From Ignisphaera aggregans DSM 17230 (GTDB lineage Archaea; Thermoproteota; Thermoprotei_A; Sulfolobales; Ignisphaeraceae): a stretch of 64,000 bases of DNA. Both the position numbers and the translations under genes were made by a program. The notes beneath the pieces were generated by a model that worked only from the letters and a program-made list of their open reading frames with translations, searched no databases and had not been told where the DNA came from. This document shows, one piece after another, positions 35,601 to 50,320 of this stretch (positions within the stretch are counted from its first letter, which is position 1; each line of letters starts with the position of its first letter). The stretch is from assembly GCA_000145985.1 (NCBI GenBank), contig CP002098.1:186001-250000 (forward strand), read 5' to 3'.

Positions 35601-35635
35601 GTATTCATTAGGTATAGTATAGTACAGTGGTAAAA

Positions 35636-36367
35636 ATGTCTCTGAAAATCCTATATGAAGGTAAGAGTAAACGTGTTTATGTAAAAAATGAGGATGAACT
35701 TGTTATGGAGTTTAAAGATGATGTTACAGCTATGGACGGTGCCATAAAAGCTTCTGCAAGTGGTAAGGGTGTTTTAGCTGCTAGGATGAGTGCATATTTC
35801 TTTAAGGTGTTGGAGGACAATGGTATAGAGACACACTATATAGATTATGATGGGACTAGAAACATAACTGTAAAGAGATTGTCTATAGTTCCTATAGAAG
35901 TTATAGTTAGGAATTATGCATATGGATCTCTCCTCAAGAGAATGCCTCTATATAAATCTCTTCAAAAACTTGATCCTCCACTTATAGAGTTTCACTATAA
36001 GGATGATAGTCTTCACGATCCACTTATACTACCTGAGGATATTCTCAATGTAGGTTTGTTAAGCCGAAATGAGCTTGACTATATAGTTGAAACAACCCTT
36101 AGAGTAAACAAGGTTCTTGACAATATATTCTCATCTAAGGGCTTAAGATTTGTAGATCTAAAGCTTGAGTTTGGAAGGGATAAGAATGGCAGACTTATTG
36201 TAGCTGATGAGATTAGTGGTGATACCTTTAGAGTTTTGGATGAGAATGGTAATCATCTAGATAAAGAGATATTCAGGAAAACTAAAGATGTAAACATTAT
36301 GGTCAAAGCATATATCGAACTCTGTAAAAGGCTTGGAATAGAAGTGAAAGATGTTGTATCAAGTTGA
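35636..36367 (+). CDS. purC: Phosphoribosylaminoimidazole-succinocarboxamide synthase
   Basis: First gene of the purine operon; joins CAIR and aspartate with ATP. The 243-residue protein (ATG 35636; GTG 35627 also in frame) begins LKILYEGKSKRVYV and has TVKRLSIVPIEVIVRNYAYGS and VDLKLEFGRDKNGRLIVADE, the SAICAR synthetase signatures. Only 10-20 bases separate start and likely transcription start. It overlaps purS by 17 bp. Confidence 0.95.
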   Translation: MSLKILYEGKSKRVYVKNEDELVMEFKDDVTAMDGAIKASASGKGVLAARMSAYFFKVLEDNGIETHYIDYDGTRNITVKRLSIVPIEVIVRNYAYGSLLKRMPLYKSLQKLDPPLIEFHYKDDSLHDPLILPEDILNVGLLSRNELDYIVETTLRVNKVLDNIFSSKGLRFVDLKLEFGRDKNGRLIVADEISGDTFRVLDENGNHLDKEIFRKTKDVNIMVKAYIELCKRLGIEVKDVVSS

Positions 36368-36605
36368 GGTTATAATATCTCTTAAGAAGGGTATTAGAGA
36401 TCCTGAAGCTGAGACTATACATAAGCATCTAATTCTTAGAAAAGGTTTCGATTCTATAAAATCCGTTAGAGCAGGCAAATACCTTCTCTTCTCTGTAGAT
36501 ACCGATAGTCCTGAGAAAGCACTTGAGATTGTTAAAACAATGTGTGAAAAGCTGAGGATATACAACCCAGTTATTCACGATATAGAGGTGAGACTCTCTG
36601 GCTAG
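36351..36605 (+). CDS. purS: FGAM synthase subunit PurS
   Basis: Small structural subunit of the three-part FGAM synthase (PurS-PurQ-PurL). The 84-residue protein starts YQVEVIISLKKGIRDPEAET, the standard PurS opening, and ends YNPVIHDIEVRLSG. It overlaps purC by 17 bp and its last codons contain the ribosome binding site and apparent CTG start of purQ. Confidence 0.92.
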   Translation: MLYQVEVIISLKKGIRDPEAETIHKHLILRKGFDSIKSVRAGKYLLFSVDTDSPEKALEIVKTMCEKLRIYNPVIHDIEVRLSG

Positions 36606-37287
36606 GATAGCAGTCATAAAGTTTCCTGGTACTAACTGTGATGAGGATGTAGCTCATGCTATAAATACCGTGACCAGCCTTAAAGCTGAGGTCATATGGT
36701 ATAAGGATTTTACTCTTGATCCTTGGGATGCCATTGTTATACCTGGAGGTTTTAGCTATGGTGATTGGCTTAGAGCTGGTGCTATAGCAGCTAGAACAAG
36801 TGTTCTGGAGAGAATTGCTGAAGCTGTGGATAGGGGAATACCTGTTCTAGGTATATGCAATGGTTTTCAGATACTTGTTGAAGCAGGTCTATTGCCAGGA
36901 GCGCTAACAGTTAACGATATTGGAAGATTTGTCTGCAAATGGGTTAAACTGTATGTTGAAAGACCTAGGGGTCCATGGCTATCTCTTGCAGAGGATGGTA
37001 TGGAGCTCGATATGCCTATAGCACATGCTGAAGGCAGATATATTGTAGATAGTGAAACATATAACAGCATCCTTATGAAAAGCCCATTGATTAGATATAA
37101 AGATGGTTGGAATTCAAATGGAAGTCTCTATAATATTGCAGGTGTAGCTAGTGAAGATGGATATGTATTAGGGCTTATGCCACATCCAGAAAGAGCCTCA
37201 GAAGAAGAACTCACTCCACCTCGTTTTTCTCCAGGTGGTAGAGTGATATTCAAAAGCATTGAATATTCAATTAAAAGGGGATGGTAG
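36598..37287 (+). CDS. purQ: FGAM synthase glutaminase subunit PurQ with apparent CTG start
   Basis: Glutamine amidotransferase supplying ammonia to PurL. The first ATG/GTG/TTG in frame (GTG 36670) would delete the conserved N-terminal strand IAVIKFPGTNCDEDVAHA. An in-frame TGA at 36589 limits any extension, leaving CTG 36598 as the only near-cognate codon before that strand, with GGTGA at 36587-36591 six bases upstream. From CTG the protein has 229 residues, a normal PurQ length. The catalytic Cys is in LGICNGFQ; His/Glu in HPERASEEE. Confidence 0.85.
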   Translation: MARIAVIKFPGTNCDEDVAHAINTVTSLKAEVIWYKDFTLDPWDAIVIPGGFSYGDWLRAGAIAARTSVLERIAEAVDRGIPVLGICNGFQILVEAGLLPGALTVNDIGRFVCKWVKLYVERPRGPWLSLAEDGMELDMPIAHAEGRYIVDSETYNSILMKSPLIRYKDGWNSNGSLYNIAGVASEDGYVLGLMPHPERASEEELTPPRFSPGGRVIFKSIEYSIKRGW

Positions 37288-39482
37288 TGCCATTAACAAA
37301 TGATGAGATAGAAGAGATCAAGAGGATCCTAGGGAGGGAACCAACAGTAGAAGAGCTTGCTATGTTTGAAGCACAGTGGAGTGAGCATTGTTCCTATAAG
37401 AGTAGTAGATTGTTGCTAAGACTTTTACCTACAAAAGCAAAACATGTTGTTTTGGGGCCGGGTAGAGATGCTCCAGCTGTAGAAGTTTTTCCAGATGTTC
37501 TAGTAGTCTTTAAGATTGAGAGTCATAATCATCCATCAGCTGTAGATCCCTATAATGGAGCTGCAACAGGTATAGGGGGTATTGTAAGAGATATTCTAAC
37601 CCTTGGTGCAAAACCAATAGCACTCCTGGATCTTCTATACATGGGCAATCCAAGAGATCCTCATGCAAATTGGCTTATAAGAGGTATTGTAAAGGGTATT
37701 AGCGACTATGGGAATAGGATAGGGATACCAACTGTAGCTGGAGACACATGGTTTGATGAAGCCTTCAATAAACAGCCTCTTGTGAATGTTGCATGTGTAG
37801 GTATAGTATCTCCTGATAAAGCTGTTTTATCGGGTCCAAAATCAGGGGATCTAATACTTATTATAGGTAATGCAACAGGTAGAGATGGTCTCTTGGGAAG
37901 CAGCTTTGCTTCACGTCCACTAGCAGAAGATGTTGACAAAGATATAGGTGCTGTCCAGGTTGGAGATCCCCTAACTGAGAAGCTTCTCATAGATGTTATC
38001 CAGATTCTTGTAGAGAAAAATCTTGTGAACTACATAAAGGATCTTGGCGGCGGAGGCCTCACAACAGCTTTAAGCGAATCTGCTGCTGATCATGGTCTTG
38101 GAGCAGTTATTTATCTAGACAAGCTCCACACTAGACAGAGCTTAACACCTCTAGAACTCTTGGTATCTGAGAGCCAGGAGAGAATGCTTCTAGCGGTTCC
38201 ACCTACAAAGATAGAGGATGTGAAAAACATTCTTGAGGGGTATGAGGTTCCCTATAGCATTATAGGATATTTTGATGATAGTGGTATTATAAAAGTATTT
38301 TATATGGATAGAAAGGTTGTTGAAGCACCTGCTAAAGAACTCGCAAAACCAAGGGCTATCAGAAGACCGTCAAAACCTCCAACAGAAGCTTTGAAGGGGT
38401 TTGAGCCAATTATACTACCAGATACTGAGATAGATATAGAGAAGACAATTCTCTTGCTTCTATCGTCACCTAATATCGCTTCAAAGAAATGGATCTATGA
38501 ACAGTATGACCATGAGGTCGGTGCTAGAACTATAATAAAACCTGGATATGGTGATGCAGCTGTACTAAGACTTTTAGATGGGTCTAGAAGAGGTATAGCA
38601 GTTAAAGGAGATGCAAATCCTAGATATACCTATCTAGATCCATTCAACGGTGCAGCAAATGTTGTATCTGAATGCTATAGAAATCTAACAGCTGTAGGAT
38701 CAACACCTCTTGCAATTGTTGACGAACTTAATGCTGGAAATCCAGAGAAGCCTGAGCATTATTGGTATTTTGAGGAAATGTTGAAGGGTCTTGCCTGGAT
38801 ATCTGATGAACTTGGTCTTCCCATAGTCGGTGGAAAGGTTAGTTTCTATAACGAGGACTCAAGAGGTGTTCAAGTAAAACCAACACTAACTGTGGTAGGT
38901 GTTGGAAGGATTGATGATATTAGTTATGCTAGGGGTATGGGCTTTAGAGAATATGGCTCATACATAGTAGTTATAGGTACTACATATCCAGAGATTGGAG
39001 GTACAGAATATCTATATAGAGTACATGGAATAGAACATGGAGAGATACCTAAGCCAAGACCAACATATGAAATTAGCCATGGCAATATAGTTAGAAGGCT
39101 TATACATAGAGATATAGCTTTATCTGTCCACGATATAGGTCTTGGAGGTCTTGGAATAGCTCTCATAGAGATGGCTATAGTTAGTGGAATAGGTTTTGAT
39201 GTAGATCTCTCCGTTATTCCTATGAGAGCTGTTGATAGATTGGATGTTCTATTATTTTCAGAGACACAGGCCAGATATATTATTGAAATCGATGGTAGAA
39301 GGCTTGATGAAGCTAAGAAGATTCTTGATGAAAGTAGTGTTGTGTATAGTGTTATAGGTGTTACAAAGGGTTATGAAAAGACAGTGTTTAGATACAATGG
39401 AAACGTTGTAGCCTCCATAGATCTCATCAATGCTGTAGATATATACATGAACTCTCTTGAGAGAGAGCTGGAGGTGGTATAG
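37281..39482 (+). CDS. purL: FGAM synthase large subunit PurL
   Basis: ATP-dependent amidation of FGAR, small-type PurL of 733 residues that needs PurS and PurQ. EAQWSEHCSYKSSR (about 30-43), FKIESHNHPSAVDPYNGAATGIGGI and the second-half DPFNGAANVVSECYRNLTAVG repeat the two AIRS-like halves. The start overlaps the purQ end by 7 bp. Codon use and tight packing match the operon. Confidence 0.95.
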   Translation: MVVPLTNDEIEEIKRILGREPTVEELAMFEAQWSEHCSYKSSRLLLRLLPTKAKHVVLGPGRDAPAVEVFPDVLVVFKIESHNHPSAVDPYNGAATGIGGIVRDILTLGAKPIALLDLLYMGNPRDPHANWLIRGIVKGISDYGNRIGIPTVAGDTWFDEAFNKQPLVNVACVGIVSPDKAVLSGPKSGDLILIIGNATGRDGLLGSSFASRPLAEDVDKDIGAVQVGDPLTEKLLIDVIQILVEKNLVNYIKDLGGGGLTTALSESAADHGLGAVIYLDKLHTRQSLTPLELLVSESQERMLLAVPPTKIEDVKNILEGYEVPYSIIGYFDDSGIIKVFYMDRKVVEAPAKELAKPRAIRRPSKPPTEALKGFEPIILPDTEIDIEKTILLLLSSPNIASKKWIYEQYDHEVGARTIIKPGYGDAAVLRLLDGSRRGIAVKGDANPRYTYLDPFNGAANVVSECYRNLTAVGSTPLAIVDELNAGNPEKPEHYWYFEEMLKGLAWISDELGLPIVGGKVSFYNEDSRGVQVKPTLTVVGVGRIDDISYARGMGFREYGSYIVVIGTTYPEIGGTEYLYRVHGIEHGEIPKPRPTYEISHGNIVRRLIHRDIALSVHDIGLGGLGIALIEMAIVSGIGFDVDLSVIPMRAVDRLDVLLFSETQARYIIEIDGRRLDEAKKILDESSVVYSVIGVTKGYEKTVFRYNGNVVASIDLINAVDIYMNSLERELEVV

Positions 39483-40853
39483 ATGTGCGGCATAGCTGGA
39501 TATGTAGGATATGGCGATACATTATCAATACTTCTACAGCTTTTAATAGAGCTTCAGCATAGGGGTCAGGAAGCAAGCGGTATAGCTGTTGTGACAAAGG
39601 ATGGCAGGCTCTATGTAGTTAGTGGCAAAGGTCTTGTCTCAGAGATTTTCTCATATAGTCACATCGATATCCCTAGAGAGAACGTCTTTGGTGGTATAGG
39701 GCACGTCAGATATGCAACATCTGGAGGTTATATGGATGCAGTTACACAGCCTATAGCTATAGGTGATCGTATTAAGATAGCAATAGCTTTTAATGGAACT
39801 ATAGCAAACTATAAGCTGTTGGCTAATGAATACAGGCTAAAGGTTTCTAGCGATACAGAGTTTTTTGCAAATGCCATATATATAGAAACTATGGAGAACA
39901 AGGGCGATGTGGTAGAGGCTCTCAAGGTACTAGCGGAGAAGATTATTGGTGGTTATAGTATTGTTGTTCTAACCAATGAACCAAGAATAATTTTTGCAAA
40001 GGATCCACGTGGATTTAGACCACTTTCATATGTATACAATGGCGATGAACTGTACATAGCTTCTGAAACATCTGCTCTTGAAACTGTTGTTGGTGGTGTT
40101 TGGAGAGAGGTTGAACCTGGAGAGATCATAGTCTTTGATGGAACATCTATTGAGAGAACAGCGGCTAGAAAGATCTATGATCCTACACCATGTGTTTTTG
40201 AATATGTCTATTTCTCAAGAATAGACTCTGTATTTAATGGAGTTAGCATATATACATCGAGAATTAGGATGGGTATAGAACTTGCTAAAATGGATAATAT
40301 AGAGGCAGATGTCGTTATACCTGTACCCGATAGCGGTAGAGCTGCTGCAATAGGGTATAGCAAAGCTAGTGGGATACCTATTGAGGAAGGTATATATGCA
40401 AATAAATATCTTGGGAGAGGCTTCATAACACCTCCACATATTAGAGACTATGTATCTAGGCTAAAGTATGGATTCATAAAAAGCGTTGTTGATGGTAAAA
40501 AAGTTGTTCTTGTGGATGACTCCATAGTTAGGGGAACAACGATGAGAAGCATTGTGTTGAGACTTAGGGAAGCTGGTGCTAGCGAGGTTCATGTAAGGAT
40601 AGCAAGCCCTCCATTCAGATATCCATGTTTCATGGGTATAGATGTTGCATCGAGGCAAGAGCTTTTGGCATGGTCTAGCATGACCCTAGAGGACATCAGA
40701 AAGAGTATAGGTGCTGATAGTATTCTCTATAATACTGTAGATGCTTTGACTAGAGCTGTAGGTCTATGTAGCCTCTGTACAGCGTGTTTTACTGGGAGAT
40801 ACCCATTCAATGGGTATACAGCTTCAGATCTAGAAAATATGTTTTCTAGGTGA
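39483..40853 (+). CDS. purF: Amidophosphoribosyltransferase (catalytic copy)
   Basis: First committed step of purine synthesis: PRPP plus glutamine to phosphoribosylamine. The 456-residue protein starts Met-Cys2-Gly directly, so there is no propeptide. Glutaminase residues are intact: GHVRYATSG, AFNGTIANY and SSDTEFF. The PRPP loop is VLVDDSIVRGTTMR. Cysteines in PTPCVFE, RYPCFMG and CSLCTACF correspond to the [4Fe-4S] ligands of Bacillus-type PurF. Its ATG follows the purL stop without a gap. Confidence 0.95.
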   Translation: MCGIAGYVGYGDTLSILLQLLIELQHRGQEASGIAVVTKDGRLYVVSGKGLVSEIFSYSHIDIPRENVFGGIGHVRYATSGGYMDAVTQPIAIGDRIKIAIAFNGTIANYKLLANEYRLKVSSDTEFFANAIYIETMENKGDVVEALKVLAEKIIGGYSIVVLTNEPRIIFAKDPRGFRPLSYVYNGDELYIASETSALETVVGGVWREVEPGEIIVFDGTSIERTAARKIYDPTPCVFEYVYFSRIDSVFNGVSIYTSRIRMGIELAKMDNIEADVVIPVPDSGRAAAIGYSKASGIPIEEGIYANKYLGRGFITPPHIRDYVSRLKYGFIKSVVDGKKVVLVDDSIVRGTTMRSIVLRLREAGASEVHVRIASPPFRYPCFMGIDVASRQELLAWSSMTLEDIRKSIGADSILYNTVDALTRAVGLCSLCTACFTGRYPFNGYTASDLENMFSR

Positions 40854-40858
40854 TACAC

Positions 40859-42121
40859 ATGACGGGATTGTTAGCTATATATGCATTTGATGATCTTTGG
40901 GATATAACAAACTACCTTAGATATGGATCTATGGCGCTACAGCATAGAGGCTTTGAAAAAGGTATTACTTGTTATCCAAAGGACAACACCATTAGATGTA
41001 TAGAGTTTACCTCTCTAGATATATTCGACCATAAGCTAAATACATCTGTAGGTATCGTGGCTCTGTATAACGAAAACAATATTTATATTGGTAAAGCATC
41101 TAGCAGTGGTACTGAGGTTGTTGTTCTTGCTGATAGAACATATAGCGAATTAGATGTTGTTGCAAATAATATCGCCAAGCTATTAACAGAGCATCCCAGC
41201 GGCGATATAGTTAACACTCTTTCATCTATATTTAATAATCCCGATATCCCAACGTTTATTGCTTTAACGAATAGGGGAGAGGTTATTGTGTGGAGAAGTG
41301 GTATGGGACTTACACCACTTGTTTTAGGTGGCTATGGATTTGATATGGCTATAGTGGCTTCAGAGAGTGTTGCTATAGATATTCTTGGTGCTGAATATAG
41401 AAAAGATTTTGATTTGGGTGAAGGGGCATATATATCTAGGTACATATTCAAGGTATTCAAATTAAAGGTTTCTGAAGATAGTGCTATTTGTGCATTTGAA
41501 TTACTCTATCTAGCAAGACCTGACTCTATAGTTGGAGGTGTGAGTGTTTATCATTTCAGAAAGAGGCTGGGGGAGGAACTTGCATCGAGATTTGACAAAT
41601 CTATTGATATTGTTGTAGGTGTGCCAGAAACATCTTATCCATATGCATTAGGTTTTTCCCAAAGACTTGGAAAACCATTGGAACTAGCACTTGTGCCTAC
41701 AGGTTCTAGACAAAGGTCTATGCTTAAGGTAGATCCTATGGATAAGATCATAGCCATCCACCTAAAGATGAACCCCATTAAATCTGCTCTAGAGGGTAAG
41801 AAGATAGCTCTTGTCGATGATAGTATGGTCACAGGAGCAACTATAAAGACTGTTTCACAGTTGTTAAGATTTGGTGTAGGTGTTGAAGAGATACATCTGG
41901 TTATAGCAAGTCCTCCACTAATATCGAATTGTCCCTATAGAGTGTTTAACCTAGATGTTGAGAAACTTATTGCTGCTAACCTTAGCAGTACTCTCATGGT
42001 TAAGTATCTAGATGTTGATAGCATTTCATGGATAGACCACGAGACTATGGATAAAATTGCAAGAGATTTTAGAATTAGGTTATGCGGAAAATGTTTTGGT
42101 AGGAATTTCTTTGGTGGATAA
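40859..42121 (+). CDS. PurF paralog lacking the glutaminase cysteine
   Basis: A 420-residue PurF-like protein directly after purF. From ATG 40859 (GGTGA 40849-40853, with TGA as purF stop, five bases upstream) it begins Met-Thr-Gly where PurF has Met-Cys-Gly. The other glutaminase residues (GHVRYAT, FNGxxxN, SDTE) are missing, although LQHRGFEKG remains. The phosphoribosyltransferase half is kept, including PRPP loop LVDDSMVTGATIK and four cysteines in the PurF Fe-S positions (SAICAF, SNCPYR, LCGKC). It cannot use glutamine as PurF does. A regulatory partner or new transferase are possible. Confidence 0.85.
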   Translation: MTGLLAIYAFDDLWDITNYLRYGSMALQHRGFEKGITCYPKDNTIRCIEFTSLDIFDHKLNTSVGIVALYNENNIYIGKASSSGTEVVVLADRTYSELDVVANNIAKLLTEHPSGDIVNTLSSIFNNPDIPTFIALTNRGEVIVWRSGMGLTPLVLGGYGFDMAIVASESVAIDILGAEYRKDFDLGEGAYISRYIFKVFKLKVSEDSAICAFELLYLARPDSIVGGVSVYHFRKRLGEELASRFDKSIDIVVGVPETSYPYALGFSQRLGKPLELALVPTGSRQRSMLKVDPMDKIIAIHLKMNPIKSALEGKKIALVDDSMVTGATIKTVSQLLRFGVGVEEIHLVIASPPLISNCPYRVFNLDVEKLIAANLSSTLMVKYLDVDSISWIDHETMDKIARDFRIRLCGKCFGRNFFGG

Positions 42122-43626
42122 TGATGAAGGTTCTACTTGTTGGATCCGGTGGAAGGGAGCACGCTTTAGCTACAATGATTAGATACAGTGCTATTAAGCC
42201 AAAACTCTATGTCGTTTCAGACTATCTGAATCCAGGGCTATATAGAGAGTCTGAGGAGAGTGGAGGGAGATTATATGTAGCAAATACCTCCAATCCATAT
42301 GAAGTGTTGAAAATTGTAGAAGAGGTTTCACCTGACCTCATAGTTATAGGGCCTGAAGAACCACAGTTTGCTGGGGTTGCAGATGTTTTGAGGGAAAAAG
42401 GATTTACGGTATTTGGAGCTGGAGCAAGGTGTGCAGAGATTGAGAAGAGTAAGGTTTTTGCAAGAACACTTATGTGGAAATACTCTATACCTGGGAGACT
42501 GTTTTTCAAAGCCTTTAGAGATGTTGATGAGGCTAGAACATTTATTGAATATGCAGGTGATGTTGTTATAAAACCTGCTAGACAGGCTGGTGGTAAGGGT
42601 GTAAAGGTTCTTAGAGATACAAAGGCATATCTATCTAGAGATGTTGGTGAGGTTAAGAAGAGCTATATAGATATTTTGCATAGACATATGGAGGAATACA
42701 AAGATATAGACTATAGAATTCTAGTTGAGCAGAGGGTTGAGGGTGTAGAGTATACAGTACAAGTGGTTACAGATGGTTCTACAGCTCTACCCCTACCCGT
42801 AATACAGGATCATCCACATGCATATGAATTTGATGTAGGTCCTGAGACAGGTGGTATGGGGAGCATAATGGGTCCTGGATGGACTTTACCCTTCATAACA
42901 TCTGATGAGTATAGAAAGAGTATAGAGATTGTTGAAGAGGTTCTTAGAGCTCTTCAGAAAGAGGTTGGAGATCAGTATCGTGGTGCTTTTGCAGGACAGA
43001 TGATGTTGACGGGTCTATGGGGACCGACAATAATAGAGTTCTATAGTAGGTTTGGAGATCCGGAGATATCTAATCTTGTCCCTGTTGTTGAAAGTGATTT
43101 TCTCGAAATTCTAGATAGGGCTGCTGAGGGTAGGCTTGCAGGGGTGAAGCTTTCTATAGATGAGGAGAAGGTTGTTATTGTAAAAGCAATTGCACCTGCT
43201 GGTTATCCAGATAGCAAGAAGCTTGCATCTGGTCATCCAATAGCTATAGATGATAGAGGTATTAGGGAGAAAGGCTGTATACCACTCTATGCAAGTATTG
43301 AGATGTCTAGCAATGGTGTTTTCTATACAAAGGGTTCTAGGGTTATAGAAATTGTGTGTAGTGGTAATAGCTATGAGGATGCATATAGAAGATCTGAGGA
43401 AGCTGTTAGATATGTTCAGACACTAGATGGATGGCCATTGTTCTACAGGAGTGATATAGGTTCACAGAAGCTTCTTGAGTATAGATCTAGAGTTGCTGAG
43501 AGGGTTAGAAGGGTATATCTGTCTAGAGCTAGGAGGGGTTTGTTGGGCGAGGCCATGGTATGGATACCTGGGCAGGGGATTTTGTCAAACCCCTTGTTAT
43601 CACCTATAAAGGTGGGTGGTCTATGA
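42121..43626 (+). CDS. purD: Phosphoribosylamine-glycine ligase
   Basis: Makes GAR from phosphoribosylamine, glycine and ATP. The 501-residue ATP-grasp protein has GSGGREHALA at the N-terminus, GPEEPQFAGVADVLREKG, VIKPARQAGGKGVKVL and the HPHAYEFDVGPETGGMGS signature. It is about 70 residues longer than bacterial PurD, with the extra length mostly at the C-terminus (about 425-501, many Arg). Its ATG shares one base with the upstream stop (TAATG). Confidence 0.93.
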   Translation: MMKVLLVGSGGREHALATMIRYSAIKPKLYVVSDYLNPGLYRESEESGGRLYVANTSNPYEVLKIVEEVSPDLIVIGPEEPQFAGVADVLREKGFTVFGAGARCAEIEKSKVFARTLMWKYSIPGRLFFKAFRDVDEARTFIEYAGDVVIKPARQAGGKGVKVLRDTKAYLSRDVGEVKKSYIDILHRHMEEYKDIDYRILVEQRVEGVEYTVQVVTDGSTALPLPVIQDHPHAYEFDVGPETGGMGSIMGPGWTLPFITSDEYRKSIEIVEEVLRALQKEVGDQYRGAFAGQMMLTGLWGPTIIEFYSRFGDPEISNLVPVVESDFLEILDRAAEGRLAGVKLSIDEEKVVIVKAIAPAGYPDSKKLASGHPIAIDDRGIREKGCIPLYASIEMSSNGVFYTKGSRVIEIVCSGNSYEDAYRRSEEAVRYVQTLDGWPLFYRSDIGSQKLLEYRSRVAERVRRVYLSRARRGLLGEAMVWIPGQGILSNPLLSPIKVGGL

Positions 43627-44837
43627 ATAGAAGGGAATATCTATCTACCCCAATGTTTGAAGGATCTATAAAGATCATGTTACTTGGAAGCGGTGAACTT
43701 GGTAAGGAAGTTGCTATAGAGGCACAGAGACTTGGTTTAGAGGTTATAGCTGTAGATAGATATGAATGGGCTCCAGCTATGCATGTTGCCCATAGGAGAT
43801 ATGTTATAGATATGCTTAATCCAAATGCTCTTAAAGCTGTTGTAAGAAAAGAGAAACCTGATGTTATAATACCTGAGATAGAGGCTATAGCTGTAGATGC
43901 TCTTGAGGAGCTAGAGTCTGAGGGATTCTATGTTGTTCCAAACGCTAGAGCTGTTAAGATAGCTATGAATAGGATAGAGCTTAGAAAATTTGCTGCTGAG
44001 GTACTAGGACTTCCAACAACTAGATATAGATTTGCTGAAAATCCTGATGAAGCTGTTGAGGCATGTGAGGAAGTCGGCATACCATGTCTTATAAAGCCTG
44101 AGATGAGTAGTAGTGGACATGGGCATGCAAAGGTATTGGATCCATCGCCAAAGGTTATAAGGGAAGCTTATGAATATGCTGTCTCACATGCTAGGGGAAG
44201 GAGTAGGAGGGTAATTGTAGAGGAGTTTGTGCAGCTAGAAACAGAATTCACAGTGCTGTCATATAGATATGTAGCAGATAATGGTGTTGTTACAGAGACA
44301 TGTGAACCTGTAGAGCATTGGAGATATGGAGAGTATCACTATATAGAGTCTTGGCAACCATCATCAAAACCTATGGATATACTAAATAAAGCTAGGGAGA
44401 TTGGAATAAGGGTTGCAAATGGTCTTGGAGGTTTTGGTATATTTGGTGTAGAGATATTTCTTACAAAAGATGGTAGAGTTCTATTTAGTGAAGTTGCTCC
44501 AAGACCACATGATACAGGTATGGTTACGATGGTTAGTCAAGAGCTTAGCGAATTTGCTATACATGTAAGAGCTGCTATAGGTCTACCAGTTCCAAAGCCT
44601 AAAGTAATATCTCCAGGGGCCAGTCTCGCTATATATGTTGATAAAGATGGTATATGGGCTCCAAAGGTATATGGGGTATACAATGCATTGAAGATACCTG
44701 GTGTAGATATTAGAATATTTGGAAAGCCGTTTACATATAAAGGTAGGAGGATGGCTGTATTGCTAGCTAGAGGATCAACAGTTGAGGAAGCTCTTGAGAA
44801 AGTTAGAAATGCCTCTAAATACACTTTTGTGGGGTGA
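43623..44837 (+). CDS. purT: Formate-dependent GAR transformylase
   Basis: Formylates GAR using free formate and ATP instead of formyl-folate. The frame opens at 43560, but ATG 43623 overlaps the purD stop as ATGA and matches the family start, giving 404 residues. [20 protein letters not shown] and [18 protein letters not shown] are PurT signatures; the ATP-grasp core has [18 protein letters not shown] and [17 protein letters not shown]. With PurP it makes the whole operon formate-based. Confidence 0.95.
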
Positions 44838-44842
44838 TCCCC

Positions 44843-45247
44843 ATGCCCTGTAAAGGTAAAGTAGCTATAATTGTTGGGAGTCAGAGAGATCTTCCCCATG
44901 CAGAAAAAGCGGCAGCTGTGTTAAAAGAACATGGAATTGAATATGAGATAAAGGTTTTGAGTGCACATAGAAATCCGAAGGAGCTTGAGGAATACATAAA
45001 TGTAGCAGATGTAGATCTATTCATAGCTATGGCTGGTCTAGCAGCACATCTACCAGGCTTTATAGCGTCAAGAACACAGAAGCCTGTTATAGGAGTTCCA
45101 CTAAATGTGGCTCTAGGAGGATTGGATGCCCTCTTGAGTATTGTTCAAATGCCTAGAGGAGTACCTGTAGCAACTGTAGGTATAGACAATGCTGAAAATG
45201 CTGCATATCTAGCTATCAGAATTCTAAGACTCTGTATGGAGAAATAG
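44843..45247 (+). CDS. purE: AIR carboxylase / N5-CAIR mutase PurE
   Basis: Produces CAIR. From ATG 44843 (GGTGA 44833-44837, with TGA as purT stop, five bases upstream) the protein has 134 residues. It contains [16 protein letters not shown], the [13 protein letters not shown] active-site helix and [17 protein letters not shown]. No purK is in the operon, so this PurE may take CO2 or bicarbonate directly; that is an inference from absence in the window. Confidence 0.93.
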
Positions 45248-45249
45248 AT

Positions 45250-46275
45250 ATGGCTGGCAATAATATTTGGACATACTCTAAAGCGGGTATAGATCTATCT
45301 AAGCATAGATCTATGCATAGATATGCCTTAGAGAACATCGCTAAGCTAGCCAAGGAGCTAGGGATTAACATCAAGAATATAGGGTCATACACAACATTTA
45401 TAGGTGTTGAAGGTGTTGATATAGCATTGCATGTTGATGGTGTTGGAACAAAAACAATTGTGTTAAGTAAGTTGAATAGATATGAGGTTATCGGATGGGA
45501 TTGTGTGGCTATGAACGTAAATGATGTTGTATGTGATGGTGCTAGACCTCTAGCTCTTATAGATTATATTGCTATGCCTAGAGATGATGAAGAGATTTTT
45601 AAGAGGATATTTGATGGTATTATAAATGCTGCGAGAATAGCGAGGGTAGCTGTTGTTGGTGGGGAGACAGCTATATTGCCAGATCTTGTAAATAGTGTTG
45701 ATGCTATCTGTATGGTTGTTGCGGTAAAGAGAAATAGTTTTGTTAATAGAGCTAGAAGAGGAGATATTGTTATAGGTGTAAATAGCTGGGGTCTTCATGC
45801 AAATGGCTATACACTTGTTAGAAGAGTTATTGAGTCTACGGTAAATAGCTATAATATCTCTATAGATGGTATAGATCTTGGAGAGGAATTGTCTAGACCA
45901 ACAGCAATATATTCAAATCTTGTTATGGAGGCTATAGAGCAAGGGCTTGTAAATTCTATTGCCCATATAACTGGTGGTGCTTTTAGAAAGGTTAAAAGGG
46001 TTCTGGGAGACGATCTCGATATGTATATCAGGATGCCTGAACCACCAAAAATATTTAGTTTGATTATGAAACTAGGCAATATCCCTGTCACTGAGATGTA
46101 TAGTGTTTTTAATATGGGTATAGGACTTGTATTTACAACTCCTATAGAGAAGGTTCAAAGTCTTATGGAATTGATAGAGAGAAACGGTTTTAATGCGTAT
46201 AAACTTGGTGAAGTTGTAAGTGGTTCAGGATCAATCTATATAGATACACCTTTTGGTGAGAAGCTTGAGCTCTAG
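45250..46275 (+). CDS. purM: AIR synthase
   Basis: Closes the imidazole ring (FGAM to AIR) with ATP. The 341-residue protein has [36 protein letters not shown] and [14 protein letters not shown], all PurM signatures, and ends in the typical [10 protein letters not shown] ... [13 protein letters not shown] 45250 lies two bases after the purE stop. Its last 11 bases overlap the next gene. Confidence 0.95.
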
Positions 46276-47374
46276 ATATTCCGTAAATGAGCTTCTTAAT
46301 GGATACGACACTAAGTCTATATCTATATCAACTATAGCAAGTCATTCAGCTTTAGATGTATTTGATGGTGCTAAGGACGAGGGCTTTAAAACTATAGCTA
46401 TATGTCAAAGGGGTAGGGAGAAACCATATCTAAGATTTAGGAGAATTATTGATATGCCTATAATACTGGATAGATTTGCTGATGTTATTAAACAAGATGT
46501 TATTGATATGCTTAGAAAAAACAATGCTATTTTCATTCCAAATAGAAGTTTTGCTGTTTATGTGGGATATGATAATATTGAGTCAAGGTTTCCTATACCA
46601 ATATTTGGTAATAGATATCTCCTTAGATATGAGGAGAGGGTTGGGGATAAGAACTATTACAAGATACTTGATTTAGCTGGTATAAGAAGACCAAAAACAT
46701 TTTCATCTCCAGATGAAATTGATAGACCTGTAATGGTCAAACTTCCACACGCTAGGAAGAGGGTTGAAAGAGGATTCTTTATAGCTATAGATAGAGATGA
46801 CTTTCAGAAGAGATTCAATAAACTTGTTGCTGATGGCATTATAAAGCCAGAGGATATGTCTAGAGCATCTATAGAAGAGCTTATAATTGGCGCTCATTTC
46901 AATGTCAATTACTTCAATAGTATCGCTAGAAAAGATGTAGAGATAATTAGCATTGACAGAAGACTACAGACAAATCTAGATGGATTTCTGAGAATGCCTG
47001 CAGATATACAGTTGGAGCTTAGAGATATAATGGATATCGAAATGATTGAAATAGGACATGAAATGGCTACCATTAGAGAGAGCATGCTTGAAAAGCTGTT
47101 TGAGATAGGCGATAAATTTGTTGAGGCAACAAAGATTATAGAGTCTCCGGGTATCATAGGACCATTCACCCTACAGCTAATGGTTACATCAGATCTAGAT
47201 GTAGTTGTATTTGATGTTGCTCCCAGAATTGGTGGTGGAACCAATGTTCACATGGGTATAGGTAGTCAATATAGTAAGCTCTACTTTGGAAAGCCTATCA
47301 GCATGGGGAGAAGGATTGCTATGGAGATAAGAGAATGCATAGAACTTAACTGTATTGATAAGATCATTACATAG
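46265..47374 (+). CDS. Divergent PurP paralog
   Basis: A 369-residue ATP-grasp protein of the PurP (FAICAR synthetase) family. Start TTG 46265 has GGTGA at 46255-46259 five bases upstream; TTG 46253 and GTG 46256 are alternatives. The fold is kept ([23 protein letters not shown] and the final GxGS-YSKL region), but the ATP-binding loop is [16 protein letters not shown] where PurP has KLPGAKGGRGYF. The C-terminal FEFSGRIVAGTN is here [12 protein letters not shown]. Normal FAICAR synthesis is doubtful. It may perform another late purine step. Confidence 0.82.
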
Positions 47375-47383
47375 GGTACGGAT

Positions 47384-48730
47384 ATGACGCTAGATATCTG
47401 TCCCCTTGAATGGAGATACGCTTCGCAGGAAATGAGATATATTTTCTCTAGAGAGAATTTCATTAATAAGATGATAGAAGTTGAAACAGCTATTATGAGA
47501 GGATTAGAGAAAAGTGGTTTTGCACCCAATGGATGTTGGGAGAGGATAGCCAAGGTTGCAGGGGCTATAAATCCCAGAGAGATTGATGAACTTGAAAAGA
47601 GGCTTGGACATGATGTAGCAGCTCTTGTAGCAATACTATCAGAGAGGGTTGGTATGCCATGTGGAAACTATGTGCATCTGGGAGCTACAAGCTATGATAT
47701 TGTTGATACAGCGTGGGCATTAGTATTGAGAGACGCCATCAACTTGGTTAAGAAGAAGCTTAGAAGGGTTATCGAAATACTAATTGATTTTGCCTATAGA
47801 TATAGAGATGTTGTTATGGTTGGAAGAACCCATGGTAAACACGCACTTCCTATAACATTTGGGTTTAAAATGGCTAACTATGTATATGAGTTCTCAAGAT
47901 CTTTTGAGAGGCTGTGTGATGTTGAGAAAAGGGTTGTTAGGGGTAAGATTGCAGGTGCTGTAGGTACAATGGCTGGATGGTTTGGTAAGGGGCTAAGTGT
48001 TGAGAAAGAAGCCCTTGAGTATCTAGGTCTAGAGTCTCATGCTATAGCTACACAGGTTGCACCAAGAGATGGTTTTGCAGAACTTGTATCAGCTCTAGCA
48101 ATACTTGGGTCACAACTAGATAGATTTGCTCTTGAGATTAGAGAACTTATGAGAGACGAAATTGCGGAGGTGTTTTACTCAGCTGGAGAGATTGGTAGTA
48201 GTGCTATGCCACATAAGAGAAATCCTACTACAGCTGAGAGGATATGTGGATTAGCAAAAATATTGAGGGGGCTTGTATTGACAGCCCTAGAAAATATACC
48301 ACTTATGCATGAGAGGGATTTGACTAATAGTAGTGCTGAAAGAATACTGATTCCACATGCATTTCTAGTGATAGATCAGATGCTTGAGGATATGCTATCC
48401 ATATTATCGAAACTGAGTATAGATGAAGCAAATATGATGAGGAATTTAGAGCTATCTAAAGGGAATATCATGAGCGAGTGTATAATGTCTAAACTCGTTT
48501 TGAAGGGAGGTGTGCCGAGGGTTCAAGCACATGAAATTATGAGGAAACTATCGAGAGAATCCTATGAAAAGGGTATTCATCTAAAGGAGGTAGTTTTATC
48601 AAGCGATATAGTCAAGATGTTAAGTGTTAATGATATTGAGGAGTGTTTTGACTATAGAAAATATCTTGGGAGCTATAACGAGTTGATAGATAGAGCTATA
48701 GAATATGCAAAAAATGCTATAGGGATTTAA
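47384..48730 (+). CDS. purB: Adenylosuccinate lyase
   Basis: Splits fumarate from SAICAR and adenylosuccinate. The 448-residue protein has the fumarase/aspartase signature GSSAMPHKRNPTTAERICG (about 281-299), MVGRTHGKHALPITFG with the catalytic His, and VHLGATSYDIVDTAW. It sits between the two purP-like genes, so SAICAR lyase and the formylating step are neighbours. ATG 47384 lies nine bases after the previous stop. Confidence 0.95.
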   Translation: MTLDICPLEWRYASQEMRYIFSRENFINKMIEVETAIMRGLEKSGFAPNGCWERIAKVAGAINPREIDELEKRLGHDVAALVAILSERVGMPCGNYVHLGATSYDIVDTAWALVLRDAINLVKKKLRRVIEILIDFAYRYRDVVMVGRTHGKHALPITFGFKMANYVYEFSRSFERLCDVEKRVVRGKIAGAVGTMAGWFGKGLSVEKEALEYLGLESHAIATQVAPRDGFAELVSALAILGSQLDRFALEIRELMRDEIAEVFYSAGEIGSSAMPHKRNPTTAERICGLAKILRGLVLTALENIPLMHERDLTNSSAERILIPHAFLVIDQMLEDMLSILSKLSIDEANMMRNLELSKGNIMSECIMSKLVLKGGVPRVQAHEIMRKLSRESYEKGIHLKEVVLSSDIVKMLSVNDIEECFDYRKYLGSYNELIDRAIEYAKNAIGI

Positions 48731-48731
48731 A

Positions 48732-49802
48732 ATGATTGATATTGATAAGATTTTAGAGAATTATGATCTCGATAAACTATCTATAGCTACACTTGCTAGC
48801 CATACATCTCTCCAGATAGTTCATGGAGCTAAGCTAGAGGGTTTTAAAACTATTGTTATTGTTCTTAGAGATAGGCTGTGGTTCTATGAACAGTTTAAAC
48901 ATTTAATTGATGAGTATATAGTTGTTGATAGTTGGAGAGATGTTTGTAGCAAGAATGTTGTATCCAGATTGAGAGAGTCTAACGCTGTTATGGTTCCCCA
49001 TGGTAGCTATGTTGAGTATATAGGGCTTGACTGTGCTGAGAATATCGAGGTTCCGATTTTTGGTCTCAGAGGTTTATTTAGAGTTGAGGCAGATCAACAT
49101 CTAAAGATGGATTTGTTAAAAAAGGCAGGTATTCCAATACCAAAGATATATAGTTTTGATGAGAATATTGATAGACCTGTTATAGTTAAGCTTCCTGGTG
49201 CAAAGGGTGGAAGGGGGTATTTTGTAGCTTCAGATAGTAAAAAGGTTTTTGATAAGCTTAAGACCTATGTTGATAGAGGTATTATAAAATCTATTGATGA
49301 AGCTATAATCCAGGAGTATCTAGTGGGTGTTACAGCATATTATCACTATTTCTATAGCCCTATACTAAATAGGTTAGAGATTATGGGTGCAGATATAAGA
49401 TATGAATCCGATATAGATGGGCTAAGGAGAATGCCTCTAGAGGTAATAAATGCTATTGGTATTGAACCAACATTTACTGTAGTTGGAAATATACCTCTTG
49501 TCCTAAGAGAAAGCCTATTGCCAAAAATACTGGAGTACGGACTAAGATTTGTTGAAGTAACAAAGAAATATATTCCGCCTGGTATTATAGGGCCATTCTG
49601 TTTAGAGAGTGTGATTGATAGGGATATGAATATAAAGGTCTTTGAGTTTTCTGGAAGGATTGTAGCTGGAACAAATATATATATCTATGGCAGTCCATAC
49701 TCATATCTATATTGGAATGAGCCTATGAGTACAGGTAGAAGAATTGCTAGAGAAATCAAATTAGCTATAGAGAAAAATATTATTAAAAATATTTTAACGT
49801 AA
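48732..49802 (+). CDS. purP: FAICAR synthetase (formate-AICAR ligase)
   Basis: Makes FAICAR from AICAR, formate and ATP without folate, the archaeal route. The 356-residue protein has all family features: LSIATLASHTSLQIVHGAK, the ATP loop VIVKLPGAKGGRGYFVAS, GVTAYYHYFYSPILNRLEIMG and FEFSGRIVAGTNIYIYGSPYSYL. Last gene of the operon; ATG 48732 follows the purB stop by one base. IMP cyclohydrolase (PurO or PurH) is not seen in the window. Confidence 0.93.
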   Translation: MIDIDKILENYDLDKLSIATLASHTSLQIVHGAKLEGFKTIVIVLRDRLWFYEQFKHLIDEYIVVDSWRDVCSKNVVSRLRESNAVMVPHGSYVEYIGLDCAENIEVPIFGLRGLFRVEADQHLKMDLLKKAGIPIPKIYSFDENIDRPVIVKLPGAKGGRGYFVASDSKKVFDKLKTYVDRGIIKSIDEAIIQEYLVGVTAYYHYFYSPILNRLEIMGADIRYESDIDGLRRMPLEVINAIGIEPTFTVVGNIPLVLRESLLPKILEYGLRFVEVTKKYIPPGIIGPFCLESVIDRDMNIKVFEFSGRIVAGTNIYIYGSPYSYLYWNEPMSTGRRIAREIKLAIEKNIIKNILT

Positions 49803-49810
49803 TATAGGGT

Positions 49811-50320
49811 TTACTTAGGTTTATAGAATGGATGTTCCACTTTATCCTTCTTCTCAAGTATTTCATCAATCTTTGGCTCTCCCGCCATAGCTCTTTTAAT
49901 AGCTAGTTTTGTTGCCTCATAGTTATATCTATAGATTTTATCTGGGTCTTTTGCAGCTGGATGTATAAATACTCCACATATAATGACGACATCATCTACA
50001 ATATCCTTTGGTATAACACCTTCAGCAACACTATCTGCAACAGCCTTGGCAACAGCATATTGAGCAGGCCCGAAGATTAATTCAGCTTGCTTCATATTCT
50101 TTATAGTAACCTTGGGTACTATTAGAGTAACAGGTTTTACAAGCAGATTAGGTGTTAATACAGCAAATAGTTTTGTATGGCCATATGATTGATGAGCTAA
50201 GCCAAATGCAAAGCCTATGCCTGCAGGACCATCTTTATCCCCTATGATTAAATCTATATGTGCTACTTCATTGCCTTCGCCCACTAGTGCTTCTCCAAAT
50301 CTCATGCCAATTTTTCCCAT
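49811..50320 (-). CDS. fae: Formaldehyde-activating enzyme (stand-alone)
   Basis: Condenses formaldehyde with tetrahydromethanopterin to methylene-H4MPT. The 169-residue protein has [20 protein letters not shown] with the catalytic His (about 21), [51 protein letters not shown] and the C-terminal HPFYKP. It lacks the Hps (hexulose phosphate synthase) fusion usual in many archaea, and no hps gene is near. It is convergent with purP (8 bp) and beside the pterin gene cluster. Confidence 0.92.

Follow-up and report, generated by a model that had tools for sequence, protein, structure and literature searches.

How Ignisphaera aggregans DSM 17230 closes the purine ring is the question raised by the stretch of its genome analysed here (the window), which is 64,000 nucleotides long and covers positions 186,001 to 250,000 of contig CP002098.1 (G000:C1:186001-250000 in our labelling). 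The window carries a purine operon in the order purC, purS, purQ, purL, purF, purF', purD, purT, purE, purM, PurP-II, purB and PurP-I, so that two PurP genes flank purB. In Crenarchaeota and Pyrococcus the last purine step, from 5-formamidoimidazole-4-carboxamide ribonucleotide (FAICAR) to inosine monophosphate (IMP), was without a known enzyme in 2011 (Brown et al., Biol Direct 6:63, PMC3261824), and the crenarchaeal IMP cyclohydrolase was still unidentified in 2019 (PMC6797443). No named crenarchaeal enzyme was found in the accessible portions of the literature searched, including PMC4177761 and PMC12892359. Our comparisons suggest that the PurP set as a whole (cluster I plus cluster II, or a longer type III protein alone) likely makes IMP without PurH or PurO. 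Judging from sequence, there is an even chance that the cluster II member, PurP-II, supplies the cyclohydrolase step in this genome.

Brown et al. sorted archaeal PurPs into clusters Ia and Ib, which have a P-loop, and cluster II, in which the loop is two residues longer and a His replaces Asn258 (PMC3261824). Species with a Ib protein carried exactly one cluster II protein, T. kodakarensis has PurO in addition to its Ib and II proteins, and no Crenarchaeote studied there had PurO or PurH2. Ring closure by one of the two PurPs was already proposed at that time, with a pattern described as "imperfect" and tests that were unsuccessful. Neither the PurP pair nor the guess that one of the two closes the ring is new, and the two window proteins are ordinary members of the 2011 scheme. 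What we add are the PurO-free counts across the phylum, units of purP-II, purP-I and guaB in genomes lacking PurC, and the type III lineage.

The window genome is a single contig of 1,875,953 bases, 99.84% complete, with an otherwise complete purine pathway from which PurO and PurH alone are absent as known last enzymes. The first-pass annotation of this DNA had remarked on their absence from the operon and had named a homolog elsewhere in the genome as refuting; profiles for PurO (PF07826) and PurH (TIGR00355) had no match in the operon or in the whole genome, and the PurO profile search recognised its positive controls, M. jannaschii and H. volcanii. A whole-genome search yielded exactly two PurP genes. 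Both products match PF06849 (DUF1246) and PF06973 (DUF1297), PurP-II over its whole length with 162 and 265 bits (161.7 and 264.9) and PurP-I with 157 and 259 bits, and they are 40% identical over 366 aligned positions. Together with the purB between them, these matches bear out the arrangement described in the first-pass annotation. purM overlaps PurP-II, and the gaps across PurP-II, purB and PurP-I are only 9 and 1 nt. The start of PurP-II may be the TTG at 46253 rather than 46265. The features concerned are:

46253 to 47374, forward strand: PurP-II, the divergent PurP (cluster II), 373 residues, TTG start; PF06849 and PF06973, tree and AlphaFold2 model
47384 to 48730, forward strand: purB, between the PurP genes; TIGR00928, 420 bits (cut-off 326)
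48732 to 49802, forward strand: PurP-I, the P-loop PurP (cluster Ib), 356 residues; domain matches and tree
49188 to 49223, forward strand: P-loop KLPGAKGGRGYF, residues 153 to 164 of PurP-I; glycines 99-100% conserved in 122 cluster I rows
46739 to 46786, forward strand: cluster II loop, residues 163 to 178 of PurP-II, which replaces the Gly-rich P-loop and holds the invariant Arg173
46343 to 46345, forward strand: His31 of PurP-II, equivalent to M. jannaschii His27; 100% in clusters I and II and in type III
47057 to 47059, forward strand: His269 of PurP-II, equivalent to M. jannaschii Asn258
47225 to 47245, forward strand: RIGGGTN, residues 325 to 331 of PurP-II, in which Arg325 is equivalent to M. 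jannaschii Arg314

Residue conservation was read from 122 cluster I, 164 cluster II and 17 type III rows, five open reading frames (ORFs) without the start motif being left out. The two loops are as first quoted: PurP-I has the P-loop, whose glycines are conserved in cluster I alone, and PurP-II has a divergent loop, two residues longer and devoid of the P-loop glycines, and so lacks the Gly-rich motif of formate-dependent AICAR (5-aminoimidazole-4-carboxamide ribonucleotide) ligase. In M. jannaschii PurP, His27 and Arg314 contact the formyl group and Asn258 the carboxamide (PMC3261824). His27, Arg264, Glu265, Arg314 and the ATP-grasp Lys156 (M. jannaschii numbering) are 98-100% conserved in all three types, and PurP-II retains the residues that hold AICAR and FAICAR (His31, Ser99, Ser277 and Arg325) as well as the ATP-grasp lysine (Lys163). 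Position 258 is Asn in 100% of the cluster I rows, His in 94% of the cluster II rows and His in 17 of 17 type III rows. Arg93, Arg124, Arg164, Phe166, Glu199, Gln297, Asp310 and Gly317 (M. jannaschii numbering) are close to 100% in cluster II and type III. In PurP-II numbering, a nearly invariant set peculiar to cluster II comprises Arg98, Arg129, Arg173, Glu208, Asn217, Asn219, Gln308 and Asp321.

Two apparent peculiarities of PurP-II dissolved on comparison with M. jannaschii PurP. Gln308, where the window PurP-I has Glu, could have been a lost metal ligand; M. jannaschii PurP also has Gln, which rules this out. The GGGTN site had been taken in the first-pass annotation as an alteration of PurP-II; M. 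jannaschii PurP reads DGGTN and many cluster II proteins read PGSP or PGCP, so the motif is not diagnostic, and the departing copy is in fact PurP-I (VAGTN). The Arg of RIGGGTN is conserved in all three types. We also observed a charge swap, with Gln199 and Glu297 in the 122 cluster I rows against Glu199 and Gln297 in M. jannaschii PurP and in the cluster II and type III rows; at 199, 297 and 317, M. jannaschii PurP and cluster II share Glu, Gln and Gly, and the cluster I rows have Gln, Glu and Ala.

A quick family tree of 136 rows separated cluster I from cluster II plus type III with a Shimodaira-Hasegawa-like approximate likelihood ratio (SH-aLRT) support of 100 and placed PurP-II on the cluster II side; four rows of the cluster I clade carry a false "III" label, assigned by ORF length. 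The AlphaFold2 model of PurP-II (mean predicted local distance difference test score, pLDDT, 92.3) has an ATP-grasp fold and superimposes on M. jannaschii PurP 2r7k with a Z score of 45.1 and a root-mean-square deviation of 2.0 over 356 residues, at 42% identity. A PDB sequence search returned only three distinct PurP sequences, all placed in cluster I by Brown et al. In eight genomes compared with the window copies, identities for cluster II and cluster I were 69/60, 61/54, 61/53, 59/53, 59/53, 56/52, 53/51 and 49/43%; cluster II is thus not decaying, being the more conserved of the two in 8 of 8 pairs. PurP-II belongs to cluster II and is an ancient, well-preserved paralogue of formate-dependent AICAR ligase.

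The distribution of these proteins was followed in 250 genomes of the same phylum and in 119 Asgard genomes, statements on Euryarchaeota being those of Brown et al. PurO was found in 0 of the 250 phylum genomes and PurH-type proteins in 14, one of which (G234) is a PurH1 part only, at a contig end; weak PurH rows (below 35 bits, mostly frames of about 1,080-1,100 residues, probably a carbamoyl-phosphate synthase domain) were left out. The cluster II profile matched 208 of the 250, or 202 after removal of six in which only a cluster I piece, remnant or fragment was seen (G029, G030, G125, G170, G196, G238), a cluster II/type III count based on profile E-values. For 93 phylum genomes the types were assigned from the sequences themselves: I and II in 59, III in 15, II with I not fetched in 12, I in 5, all three in 1, and I with III in 1. 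In some of the "II" rows the contig or stretch carrying I is simply missing, and two of the five "I" genomes do have traces of II, a truncated piece in G181 and a match, not fetched, in G184. The I and II module is spread over many families of the phylum. Cluster I without II or III was seen, among the loci read, only in G029, G125 (at a contig edge) and G170, none of them PurC-positive.

With PurC as marker of the de novo pathway (168 of the 250), 160 PurC-positive genomes have cluster II or type III (153 without PurH, 7 with it), six have PurH but lack PurP, and the remaining two have neither, both of these being incomplete metagenome-assembled genomes (G034, 85%; G036, 76%). PurH is thus present in 7 of 160 PurC-positive genomes with cluster II or III and in 6 of 8 without (Fisher p = 1.6e-6, uncorrected for relatedness). 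The Asgard genomes show a weaker anti-correlation: 44 have PurP, 45 have PurH, 11 have both and none has PurO, so that PurH accompanies 11 of 44 with PurP and 34 of 75 without (p = 0.03). Types were read in 37 Asgard genomes (I and II in 32, II in 5) and in 80 named loci (I and II in 50, II in 30). Every cluster I genome among the Asgard loci read also has II, while G489, G491, G543 and G560 have a single match, of type II. In the 24 genomes reached through named loci PurH was not found. The anti-correlation that the first-pass annotation had anticipated for the divergent PurP therefore holds for PurH; it belongs, however, to the whole PurP module and cannot tell which PurP closes the ring. 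Separately, three genomes of one family (f2: G029, G030, G170; loci L011, L014, L160) have shortened or broken purP remnants and no PurC, a sign of recent pathway loss.

Gene neighbourhoods were read as well. Clusters I and II lie within 200 nt of each other in 39 of the 50 named loci that have both. Every gene family present in at least 14 of the 119 PurP loci is a known purine enzyme, which leaves cluster II and PurF' as the only surplus proteins; no unknown conserved operon gene was found there as a candidate cyclohydrolase. Among 42 phylum genomes with cluster II or III and no PurC, surroundings were read in 22. In seven of these, purP-II, purP-I and guaB stand in a row, followed by purA in six (L206, L290-L293, L298, L302): all six sampled genomes of genus g40 have the four genes, and in G173 the row of purP-II, purP-I and guaB lies close to the end of its contig. 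NCBIfam profiles confirmed guaB and purA in one of these loci (L206); guaB was not shown beside purP in the other 15, two of which (G111, G174) have purB and purA alongside. A pair standing next to IMP-using enzymes in PurC-less genomes is consistent with a unit converting AICAR to IMP, apparently a route from AICAR through IMP to adenosine or xanthosine monophosphate without de novo synthesis. As a guess, histidine synthesis or salvage might supply the AICAR.

With two PurPs and no known last-step enzyme in most members of the phylum, the odd second PurP would probably be the one to close the ring. Clusters I and II would then form an archaeal AICAR-to-IMP module, in which cluster I converts AICAR to FAICAR with ATP and formate, as shown biochemically for M. 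jannaschii PurP only, and cluster II most likely converts FAICAR to IMP. Ring closure is assigned to cluster II because of that activity of cluster I, the lost ATP loop of cluster II and its preserved FAICAR pocket; without a working ATP loop, cluster II would need only to bind FAICAR. In PurP-II the formyl group would be held by His31 and Arg325 and the carboxamide set for attack, with the arginines stabilising the iminol form before water departs. Such a module would explain why PurH takes its place in some genomes, why the guaB/purA units exist and why cluster I so rarely stands alone.

Several observations weigh against this assignment. PurC marks the purine pathway only roughly. Cluster II or III coexists with PurH in the 7 of 160 PurC-positive genomes (as PurH2 alone in genus g70) and PurP with PurH in the 11 of 44 Asgard genomes; several lineages thus retain cluster II together with PurH or with a protein consisting of PurH2 only, and the same coexistence is reported for Archaeoglobi and Methanosarcinales (PMC3261824). 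Position 258 is Asn, not His, in 9 of 164 cluster II rows, all from Heimdallarchaeia (L240-L243, L284-L288, L094, L101, L103), and the genomes of these nine proteins had no PurH or PurO in the searches covering them; His at 258 is thus not strictly defining for cluster II, and the idea of His269 as essential general base is weakened. Neither of the P. furiosus PurPs (Ib or II; PF1517 and PF0421) reportedly showed AICAR formyltransferase activity on its own, so that the formylating role of cluster I is unproven beyond M. jannaschii-type PurP, and ring closure by a PurP had not yielded to tests (PMC3261824). Finally, the type III genomes described below hold a cluster II descendant and no cluster I. 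The coexistence with PurH or PurH2, the Heimdallarchaeia variants and a cluster II/III lineage that may itself formylate AICAR keep our estimate for cluster II as cyclohydrolase evenly balanced. The first-pass proposal that the divergent PurP closes the ring is thus supported in part: IMP formation is a likely property of the module, and a simple equation of cluster II with the cyclohydrolase meets the objections above.

Type III PurPs are 452-494 residues long, about 100 more than cluster II (loci L172, L174, L176, L178-L185, L187 and others), with inserts after M. jannaschii positions 64, 146, 218 and 305 and Ala in place of Ser94. They have in common with cluster II the long loop, His at 258, Arg93, Arg124, Arg164, Gln297 and Asp310. 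In the tree they form a single clade (SH-aLRT 100) that falls with cluster II, beside a set of its Asgard members (97), on a long stem that makes the exact placement less sure; type III is a lineage descended from cluster II. It occurs without cluster I or II in 15 phylum genomes; in G227 it lies beside a cluster I gene, and G169 also has a I and II pair on another contig. PurC is present in 11 of the 15, and 8 of these 11 lack PurH. In six PurC-positive genomes from five families (G031, G047, G082, G124, G148, G172), all at least 90% complete with at most 5% contamination, type III is the sole recognised protein for the last two steps; G243 and G261 are in the same situation with 7-9% contamination. 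Type III genes lie among pur genes in L174, L175, L176, L181, L182, L184, L185, L187 and L189, and that of G148 is inside a purE/B/Q/L/S/F/C cluster; those of G124 and G047 had no pur neighbour within 15 kb. Provided that the assemblies are correct, the last two steps in these genomes are either both carried out by type III or involve at least one further enzyme. We tentatively consider, as a less probable option, that type III is a single-protein AICAR-to-IMP synthase, an ATP-grasp enzyme that formylates AICAR and closes the ring; it would then replace, alone, the I and II pair, PurH, or PurP plus PurO. No description of type III was found in the accessible parts of the literature searched, again including PMC4177761 and PMC12892359.

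Absence of cluster I from type III genomes bears on two other explanations, both of which we find rather unlikely. Clusters I and II may be an obligate mixed assembly, the complex carrying AICAR to IMP or only to FAICAR; the two genes do travel together, and neither P. furiosus protein is reported to be active alone, but type III dispenses with cluster I in 15 genomes and M. jannaschii PurP (Ia) acts with PurO and no second PurP (PMC3261824). Alternatively, the absence of cluster I there means that the II/III lineage may formylate AICAR, or that another enzyme is missing from view: cluster II and type III would be a second or main AICAR formyltransferase, possibly using a different formyl donor, while an unrecognised protein elsewhere in the genome would be the cyclohydrolase. 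The type III-only genomes need a formyltransferase, and cluster II has the ATP-grasp Lys and, like the active M. jannaschii enzyme, Glu199, Gln297 and Gly317, where Ib has Gln, Glu and Ala. This explanation does not say, however, why nearly all genomes with cluster II also retain cluster I; the P-loop is lost in both II and III, and no conserved unknown gene lies close to PurP in the 119 loci.

Two further possibilities are much weaker. FAICAR might close by itself in hot cells, cluster II having another role, and the relatives of the window organism are hyperthermophiles; but the same set without PurO and PurH is found in Asgard archaea and in phylum families that include mesophiles. FAICAR did not cyclise spontaneously in buffer at 60 C and pH 7.3 within 30 min (PMC6797443), and S. 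solfataricus extracts convert AICAR to IMP (PMC3261824), which makes self-closure very improbable. Even more doubtful is PurF', also described by Brown et al. (PMC3261824), as the missing cyclohydrolase. PurF' adjoins purF in the same operon and is PurF-like, with the phosphoribosyltransferase domain kept and the N-terminal nucleophile Cys gone, and almost any enzyme binding a nucleotide monophosphate could do this step according to the same authors; yet it is the nearest relative of 20 of 47 PurF-family genes in the 119 neighbourhoods (PurF' was not searched for genome-wide), and a single PurF is shown in the type III operons L176, L181, L182 and L184.

The rest of the operon lies upstream of PurP-II:

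35627 to 46275, forward strand: purC, purS, purQ, purL, purF, purF', purD, purT, purE and purM
39483, forward strand: purF
40850 to 42121, forward strand: purF'
42121, forward strand: purD
43560, forward strand: purT
44834, forward strand: purE
45250 to 46275, forward strand: purM

On the opposite strand, 8 nt past the end of PurP-I, lies a gene for the formaldehyde-activating enzyme Fae (49811 to 50320, reverse strand; TIGR03126, 264 bits), a possible link to one-carbon supply.

Once genomes are compared by their cluster I, cluster II, type III, PurH and PurO content, the question of the last purine step comes down to a few complementation tests. Among these genomes, those with type III are the clean test case, since one gene there has to carry out both last steps or take part in them.

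PurP-II itself is not a type III protein, being 373 residues long against more than 450 and lacking the four inserts, which are confined to type III rows. With PurO and PurH2, the known IMP cyclohydrolases, it would share the proposed reaction only: the protein has no match to PF07826, PF01808, PF02142 or TIGR00355 at E <= 0.001, and its model has the ATP-grasp fold. M. jannaschii PurP (MJ0136; 2r7k/l/m/n) has the same fold, AICAR pocket, ATP-grasp Lys, Glu199 and Gln297, and differs in its P-loop ARGGRG, which is replaced in PurP-II, and in Asn258, which is His. From the cluster II of Brown et al., in whose paper Ignisphaera is not named, PurP-II shows no notable difference: the long loop without glycines, the His for Asn258, the preserved equivalents of His27 and Arg314 and the Ib partner near purB are all found in the window.

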